Source: Candidatus Zixiibacteriota bacterium (GTDB taxonomy: Bacteria; Zixibacteria; MSB-5A5; DSPP01). Taken from it: 48,861 nucleotides of DNA. The DNA lies in contig JAKEHY010000018.1 of NCBI GenBank assembly GCA_022614805.1, positions 1 to 48,861 on the forward strand. Direction: 5' to 3'. Below, piece after piece: positions 22,952 through 24,370 of the stretch. Within the stretch, counting starts at the first letter, position 1. Every line of letters begins with the position of its first letter. A program made the position numbers and the translations under genes. The notes beneath the pieces are model-generated. The model was not told the DNA's origin. It did no database searches and saw only the letters and a list, made by a program, of their open reading frames with translations.

Positions 22952-22980
22952 TTGACAAAAGAACTTGCAAGAGTTATCAT
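22952..22980 (+). promoter_or_regulatory. Promoter of the cold-shock gene array
   Basis: TTGACA at 22952-22957, a 17-bp spacer and TATCAT at 22975-22980. Transcription from here gives an untranslated leader of about 200 nt before the first cold-shock start at 23187. That is similar in scale to the temperature-sensing leader of E. coli cspA. Confidence 0.7.
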
Positions 22981-23186
22981 TAAACCGGCGTAAGGAAGTT
23001 GATTTTGGAGGAAACAGATTAACAAAGATGGCCCCGCAACGGGGAGGACCACTTCCCGGCAGCGGGATTTTGCTTTTTAGGGAAACAAAAAGGGCCGGCA
23101 AACTCTCGAAACATTCCCCGAAAACCGAATAATCCCCCAGGAGGCGCGGGCATTTCAATGAAAACGGAAGAAAGGTGGTGAGATTT

Positions 23187-23387
23187 TTGGCACAGGGCAC
23201 GGTTAAATGGTTCAACGACGCAAAGGGCTTCGGCTTCATCCGTATGGATGACGGCAAGGAAGTCTTCGTCCACTACACCGCCATCGTGGACAAGGGTTTC
23301 AAATCCTTGAAGGAAGGGGACCCGGTTCGCTTTGACGTGGTGGAAGGCCCCAAAGGGCCGCAGGCCGCCAACGTGGTGAAGGCTTGA
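23187..23387 (+). CDS. csp: Cold-shock domain protein 1 (TTG start)
   Basis: A 66-residue single-stranded nucleic-acid-binding protein: [17 protein letters not shown] and VFVHYTAI are RNP-1 and RNP-2. It ends [13 protein letters not shown]. These proteins melt RNA structure and help transcription and translation in the cold or in growth. The start is set at TTG 23187. AGGTGGTGA sits 5 nt upstream, the same distance as in the three other copies, and the result has the usual three residues before the conserved Gly. A GTG four codons further upstream (MVRFLAQ) is possible but would overlap the Shine-Dalgarno. Confidence 0.92.
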
Positions 23388-23460
23388 ACGATTGCAGCTC
23401 CGCTTTTTTTCGAAAAGGCGGGTTTACGGTAACAACGAAACAAAGGGCGAGGTGATTACT

Positions 23461-23661
23461 TTGGCACAGGGCAGCGTTAAATGGTTCAACGACGCAAAGG
23501 GATACGGCTTCATCCGTATGGATGACGGCAAGGAAGTGTTCGTCCATTACACGGCTTTAAGCGGCGAGGGCTTCAAGTCGCTCAAGGAAGGGGATTCCGT
23601 CCGCTTTGACGTGGTGGAAGGGCCGAAAGGGCCGCAGGCCGCCAATGTGGTAAAAGCTTGA
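23461..23661 (+). CDS. csp: Cold-shock domain protein 2 (TTG start)
   Basis: A 66-residue paralogue: [33 protein letters not shown], ending in the same [16 protein letters not shown] 23461 is preceded by GAGGTGA at 5 nt. An upstream in-frame extension reads through the leader and is not convincing. It is 73 bp after copy 1 and shares its transcript unless terminated. Confidence 0.9.
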
Positions 23662-23777
23662 CATTCGAACGGCTGTGGCCGTTTGAAACCGGCAATTGCG
23701 CCAAAATGGGTTTTCGCATCGCCAAAACAAGTGCGAAACGCCCAGGAACAACGTAACGGAACAAGGTGGTGATTTTT
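23662..23777 (+). promoter_or_regulatory. Structured leader before cold-shock gene 3
   Basis: This begins with a hairpin TTCGAACGGC-TGTG-GCCGTTTGAA (about 23664-23687). It is followed by GAAACCGGCAATTGCGCCA, then AAATGGGTTTTC. The gap before copy 4 has the same order: hairpin GCCCCGA-TTCGG-TCGGGGC, then GAAACGGGCATTTTGCCCA, then AATGGGTTTC. The repeated element suggests a shared RNA regulatory leader. Confidence 0.5.
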
Positions 23778-23978
23778 CTGGCACAGGGTACTGTGAAATG
23801 GTTTAACGACGCAAAAGGATTCGGCTTTCTCCGTTCGGAGGATGGAACCGAGGTTTTTGTGCACTATTCGGCAATCACCGATAAGGGCTTCAAGTCGTTA
23901 AAGGAAGGCGAAGCGGTCCGCTTCGACGTCGTCGAGGGTCCGAAAGGGCCGCAGGCGGCCAACGTCGTTAAGGCATAA
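23778..23978 (+). CDS. csp: Cold-shock domain protein 3 (CTG start)
   Basis: A 66-residue paralogue: [37 protein letters not shown] and the shared tail. The codon in the start position is CTG (23778), 5 nt after AAGGTGGTGA. GTG at 23766 or 23769 would give MVIFLAQ; those codons are part of the Shine-Dalgarno itself. CTG initiation is rare, so this is a real open point. Confidence 0.88.
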
Positions 23979-24108
23979 CGCCGCGAACGCCCCGATTCGG
24001 TCGGGGCTTATTGAAACGGGCATTTTGCCCAAATGGGTTTCCCCCGTCCGCAAAAAGCGGAGGGCGGGAGTCCCAGCAACACGAAACAGAGTTAAGGTGG
24101 TGATTTTT
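23979..24108 (+). promoter_or_regulatory. Structured leader before cold-shock gene 4
   Basis: Hairpin GCCCCGATTCGGTCGGGGC (about 23991-24009) plus TTATT, which could be a weak terminator or attenuator. Then comes GAAACGGGCATTTTGCCCA, the element shared with the previous leader. Before the Shine-Dalgarno, CACGAAACAGAG resembles AACGAAACAAAG before copy 2. Confidence 0.5.
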
Positions 24109-24309
24109 CTGGCACAGGGTACCGTTAAATGGTTTAACGACGCAAAAGGCTTTGGTTTTCTCCGTATGGATGATGGCAAAGAGGTTTTTGTGCACTATTC
24201 GGCAATCGCCGATAAGGGCTTCAAGTCGTTGGCCGAAGGCGAGACCGTCCGCTTCGACGTGGTCGAAGGCCCCAAGGGGCCGCAGGCCGCCAACGTCGTC
24301 AAGGCGTAG
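24109..24309 (+). CDS. csp: Cold-shock domain protein 4 (CTG start)
   Basis: A 66-residue paralogue nearly identical to copy 3 in its first half: [39 protein letters not shown]. The start codon position holds CTG, with AAGGTGGTGA 5 nt before it, exactly as in copy 3. It is the last gene of the array; a strong bidirectional terminator follows. Confidence 0.88.
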
Positions 24310-24322
24310 GTTTTACCATTAA

Positions 24323-24364
24323 GAAAAAACCCCCCTTCGGGCAACCGGAGGGGGGTTTTATTTT
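24323..24364. terminator. Bidirectional intrinsic terminator
   Basis: AAAAAACCCCCCTTCGG - GCAA - CCGGAGGGGGGTTTTATTTT. A G/C stem is flanked by an A run on one side and a T run on the other, so it works on both strands. It ends the cold-shock array (plus) and the dinB-tag-gnat operon (minus). Confidence 0.9.
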
Positions 24365-24370
24365 GAGGGA

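Follow-up and report, generated by a model that had tools for sequence, protein, structure and literature searches.

Four tandem cold-shock (csp) genes in an uncultured Candidatus Zixiibacteriota bacterium were read in a first-pass annotation as starting with TTG, TTG, CTG, and CTG, raising the question of whether these codons are the true starts and, if so, what they do to translation. The genes lie in a window of 48,861 nucleotides (the whole stretch of DNA that was analyzed), a contig (G000:C16) of a 2.56-Mb genome, and all four starts were confirmed at the positions given in Table 1. The Pfam family PF00313 spanned the whole length of all four products (profile match, E ~1e-28), and in the alignment each product comprised a single cold-shock domain that spans ~66 residues and contains the VKWFN and VFVH motifs. 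Cold-shock proteins are RNA chaperones, a function presumed for csp1 to csp4 from their family. A terminator-like hairpin follows the fourth gene and a promoter-like site precedes the first; thus, the segment singled out in the first-pass annotation encloses one likely transcription unit, predicted from the sequence to consist of the promoter-like site, a leader of ~200 nt, four csp genes, and the hairpin (22952 to 24369). In the sister genome, G001, the TTGACA hexamer of the promoter-like site was kept and the second hexamer was TATCGT.

Table 1. Predicted features of the csp array, in window coordinates
Feature	Coordinates	Strand	Evidence
Promoter-like site TTGACA-17-TATCAT, sigma-70-like	22952..22980	+	Consensus scan, 11/12 matches
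Leader, ~200 nt up to first start region	22985..23170	+	Block-wise conservation in G001 alignment
Extended Shine-Dalgarno of csp1, GAAAGGTGGTGA	23170..23181	+	Sequence compared with 16S tail
csp1, start TTG, cold-shock protein	23187..23387	+	PF00313; TTG in G001
Shine-Dalgarno of csp2, AGGTGA inside GCGAGGTGATTAC	23450..23455	+	Sequence; identical in G001
csp2, start TTG, cold-shock protein	23461..23661	+	PF00313; TTG in G001
Extended Shine-Dalgarno of csp3, AAGGTGGTGA	23763..23772	+	Sequence
csp3, start CTG, cold-shock protein	23778..23978	+	PF00313; CTG in G001
Extended Shine-Dalgarno of csp4, AAGGTGGTGA	24094..24103	+	Sequence
csp4, start CTG, cold-shock protein	24109..24309	+	PF00313; CTG in G001
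Intrinsic-terminator-like hairpin with T-run	~24316..24369	+	Inverted repeat I1, 25-nt arms, 80% complementary; similar hairpin in G001

The start regions read AAGGTGGTGA-GATTT-TTG in csp1, GAGGTGA-TTACT-TTG in csp2, and AAGGTGGTGA-TTTTT-CTG in both csp3 and csp4, so that a Shine-Dalgarno sequence (AAGGTGGTGA or GAGGTGA) stands 5 nt before each non-ATG codon, as had been claimed. Each start codon was followed by GCA CAG GGN, giving (M)AQG(T/S)VKWF. The 16S RNA of the same genome (G000) ends GGATCACCTCCTTTCT; compared with the ideal AGAAAGGAGGTGAT, AGAAAGGTGGTGAT contained one central U-U mismatch, and the csp1 element AGAAAGGTGGTGA paired with the 16S tail over some 12 positions, likewise with one central U-U mismatch, while csp2 carried the shorter GAGGTGA form. 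With this mismatch to the 16S tail, the sites are near perfect and not perfect. The same array in the only other genome of the genus examined (G001) had the codons TTG, TTG, CTG, and CTG, which excludes a sequencing or assembly error as the source of the four non-ATG starts. The codons are real, but four in a row are not four independent events: the genes are paralogues with duplicated start regions (repeat family D1), so the run counts once or twice. None of the six csp genes in the genome starts with ATG (TTG, TTG, CTG, CTG, GTG, and GTG); about two-thirds of the sampled genes of this genome do. TTG starts made up ~8 to 13% of its genes in a 440-kb sample, a figure from a rough home-made start caller whose CTG calls were mostly unreliable.

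No in-frame ATG lay upstream of the start in any of the four genes. The other in-frame candidates were GTG codons within the Shine-Dalgarno sequences and, in csp2 and csp4, also a distant TTG. Initiation at such a GTG would yield proteins beginning MIFLAQ or MRFLAQ and would make the TTG or CTG (YTG) an ordinary leucine codon. Although the reading frame from this GTG runs open into the csp gene in all four window genes, the GTGs inside the Shine-Dalgarno pattern GGTGGTGA were out of frame or stop-blocked in 17 of the 30 csp genes of the phylum that carry it and so are not the start in those genes; in the f2 gene L042, TGA immediately precedes the TTG. The spacer between the Shine-Dalgarno GTGs and the YTG varied in both sequence and length among relatives, and where the GTG was in frame, the codons from it to the YTG varied without pattern, as codons free to change would. 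The GTG also overlaps the Shine-Dalgarno core, and its use would leave csp3 and csp4 without a Shine-Dalgarno sequence at the proper distance. The start regions of relatives strongly support initiation at TTG or CTG, as first annotated. A GTG start appears unlikely for the window genes, to judge from these comparisons, and as an explanation of the YTG codons it would be very improbable. Such csp genes should accordingly be annotated from the YTG and not from the GTG within the Shine-Dalgarno sequence.

A survey of the phylum covered 132 genomes, from which 82 csp genes were collected. In csp genes matching GGTGGTGA (pattern match, 132 genomes), the start was YTG 29 times, and ATG or GTG stood at the pattern position 0 times; one gene (L021) had GTG one codon after that position. 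Families f1, f2, f3 (one paralogue), f10, f13, and f16 had GGTGGTGA upstream of csp genes, and the spacer length ranged from 4 to 8 nt. The association of GGTGGTGA with YTG was very strong by a simple count of genes that are related to one another, and the csp tree (64 columns) was poorly resolved, the number of independent YTG origins not being countable from such a tree. ATG began 35 of the 82 csp genes of the phylum and 76 of the 80 related csp genes collected outside it, and none of 36 named genomes of other phyla, chosen as close csp hits, had a csp gene with GGTGA, a spacer, and YTG. Other csp genes of this phylum do use ATG. Calculated Shine-Dalgarno pairing in the csp genes of the phylum averaged -17.0 kcal/mol for TTG, -14.6 kcal/mol for CTG, and -10.9 kcal/mol for ATG starts. 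The combination of Shine-Dalgarno sequence and non-ATG start was nearly specific to the csp family in most genomes checked, and the change to CTG was confined to one genus. AAGGTGGTGA occurred 15 times in G000, four times at gene starts, three of these in the csp array; with only 4 of 15 copies at gene starts, the idea that it is the generic ribosome-binding sequence in G000 was rejected.

Other types of csp start region were also found in the phylum. In family f18, GTG was the start codon of each of the eight csp genes collected (L215 and L217 to L221), with an AAGGAG-type site upstream (in L215, GGAGGAG). Two csp paralogues, L230 (f16) and L233 (f10), have a perfect long Shine-Dalgarno sequence, GGAGGTGATTTT, directly before a GTG start. 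The ATG-type csp genes of f3 and f15 (L008, L010, L012, L014, and L016, among others) have in common CAACGGACGTGGGACACCGTTT(T)GTCCC, an element resembling a hairpin that lies immediately upstream of AAAGGAAGTG and the start.

Fourfold-degenerate sites of csp genes were 26% identical between families, which is the random level expected of saturated sites, yet the same families have retained the core of the Shine-Dalgarno sequence and a start other than ATG. Because silent sites are at random identity and one T-to-A change would be enough for ATG, yet no reversion was found, we infer that purifying selection probably acts on the Shine-Dalgarno core together with the weak start. The reading favored here, with a probability of roughly 0.68, is that an extended Shine-Dalgarno sequence joined to a UUG or CUG start, and kept by selection, lowers the amount of cold-shock protein made per mRNA. 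This pattern suggests that the start codon serves as a deliberate brake on csp production. The ribosome would bind through the extended Shine-Dalgarno sequence (as many as 12 nt opposite the 16S tail, including the fixed U-U mismatch, and shorter in csp2), the strong pairing would fix the start site, and initiation would take place at UUG or CUG. The weak codon-anticodon step would then be slow and rate limiting, yielding less protein per mRNA than AUG would. The fixed U-U mismatch may serve to avoid a perfect 12-bp helix that would hold the ribosome too tightly. Selection would maintain the pairing of Shine-Dalgarno sequence and non-AUG codon in the csp genes of several families of the phylum, with two csp copies in the genus of the window having apparently gone further, to CUG. 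Start strength relative to AUG in Escherichia coli is ~30% for UUG and <1% for CUG (PMC11497404), and long Shine-Dalgarno sequences reduce output in that species (PMC2176067).

A strong Shine-Dalgarno sequence may also fully offset a weak start, in which case net csp output would not be low. The TTG and CTG codons would then be historical accidents, tolerated behind a very strong Shine-Dalgarno sequence, with ordinary output and no regulation. Stronger Shine-Dalgarno sequences behind weak starts are a general prokaryotic trend (PMC5622118), TTG is an accepted start in the genome of the window, and the independent origins of YTG may be few. This explanation is nonetheless rather unlikely, since ATG, one T-to-A change away and in use in other csp genes of the phylum, was found 0 times with GGTGGTGA in spite of saturated silent sites. 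Furthermore, CTG is far weaker than TTG, and a neutral change to such a codon in two copies would not be easy to account for.

If translation is damped at the start codon, the limiting step may be the one policed by initiation factor 3 (IF3), which disfavors overextended Shine-Dalgarno sequences and any start codon outside the set AUG, GUG, and UUG (PMC4611024). The start of infC, a known target of IF3 autoregulation, was ATA in G000 (L299), G002 (L301), G042 (L298), and G010 (L303) and ATC in G001 (L302), with no ATG, GTG, or TTG start near the infC N terminus in any of these five loci. These apparent ATA and ATC starts stand behind AAAGGAGG-type sites, as is known for infC elsewhere. Translation of csp3 and csp4 could accordingly be gated by IF3, their CUG starts and overlong Shine-Dalgarno sequences reporting the IF3-to-30S ratio together with infC. 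Both features fall within what IF3 discriminates against, but the codon class concerned is found in the two CTG copies (csp3 and csp4) only and not in the two TTG copies; UUG, used by most of these csp genes, is canonical for IF3 (PMC4611024), and the CTG change is limited to one genus. IF3 gating of csp3 and csp4 is unlikely. Slightly more doubtful still is a wider csp regulon gated by the start codon, in which csp translation, through the fixed mismatch in an overlong Shine-Dalgarno sequence and a UUG or CUG start, would track the IF3-to-30S ratio (or temperature via IF3), with infC (AUA or AUC) responding alongside.

The first-pass annotation had suggested damped or temperature-tuned translation. 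Damping gained indirect support from the weak codons kept across saturated families and from the absence of ATG with GGTGGTGA; no support was found for temperature tuning. There was no Rfam match in the csp1 leader or the start regions at the gathering threshold, the leader had no excess stability compared to shuffles, and the predicted structure and accessibility of the start regions were ordinary at 37, 25, and 10°C. On these three counts, neither an RNA thermometer nor a riboswitch is likely in the leader or around the starts. A ribosome-based cold switch, in which the mismatched Shine-Dalgarno helix and the mismatched start pair are stable only in the cold, would fit the fixed mismatch in both helices and the calculated strengthening of Shine-Dalgarno pairing from -18.2 kcal/mol at 37°C to -27.0 kcal/mol at 10°C, but a perfect Shine-Dalgarno sequence gains about equally on cooling (-22.6 to -31.8 kcal/mol). 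That the genes belong to the cold-shock family also favors such a switch, but many csp genes are not cold induced. E. coli favors shorter Shine-Dalgarno sequences in the cold (PMC2176067), and IF3, which should oppose CUG, rises in cold E. coli (PMC6511841). With no structural thermometer seen in Rfam searches, folding against shuffles, or accessibility, a cold switch of this kind is improbable.

No relatives of the leader outside the genus were found among the loci fetched. Within the leader, positions 23005 to 23022 could form a five-codon mini-ORF (TTG GAG GAA ACA GAT TAA) after AAGGAAG, in a block that is identical in G001, where the stop is TAG. The leader block AAGGAAGTTGATTTTGGAGGAA resembles the csp start region AAGGAAGTGGATCATGGCGGAA of f3 and f15. 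Two alternative hairpins, one of them terminator-like (TCCCGGCAGCGGGA then TTTTGCTTTTT), were predicted at 23032 to 23080, with stems kept in G001; these hairpins might constitute an attenuator.

The closest known kind of element is the regulatory start site that joins a noncanonical codon to an extended Shine-Dalgarno sequence, as in infC and ccpN, from which the csp case differs by codon, gene family, mismatch, and tandem array. Conserved noncanonical starts with extended Shine-Dalgarno sequences in Staphylococcus aureus include infC (AUA), ccpN (AUA), and cvfC1 (AUU), and the three tested starts gave ~10 to 30% of the output of the ATG versions in reporters (PMC13009471). As in that set, a weak start stands here behind a very strong extended Shine-Dalgarno sequence, both conserved among relatives, whereas the codons here are UUG and CUG, the genes are csp genes, one exact Shine-Dalgarno sequence carries a fixed central mismatch, and there are four tandem copies. 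Lower output than from an ATG version, as in those reporters, is predicted for the csp genes. The autoregulated infC (AUU, AUA, or AUC), present in the same genomes, is likewise a translation-related gene with a non-AUG start kept by selection, but it uses AUN codons and encodes IF3 itself, while the csp products are presumed RNA chaperones. E. coli cspA is also a cold-shock gene behind a leader of ~200 nt, with an ATG start and a leader that refolds (PMC9947658), unlike the window array, which had no Rfam match or excess structure. The array shares a weak start and a strong Shine-Dalgarno sequence with the compensatory GUG/UUG trend (PMC5622118) and differs from it in that one exact Shine-Dalgarno sequence accompanies the non-ATG start in several families, a combination that is nearly csp specific in most genomes checked. 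No report of non-AUG csp starts was found in the literature searched (open-license papers only).

CTG accounts for only 0.024% of bacterial initiation codons and is thus very rare (PMC11497404). The defense of AUG is normally strongest in genes that are conserved and highly expressed (PMC5622118). The csp genes form a family usually thought to be abundant, yet non-AUG starts are kept in it across much of this phylum, which makes these genes a natural test of start codons as deliberate throttles.
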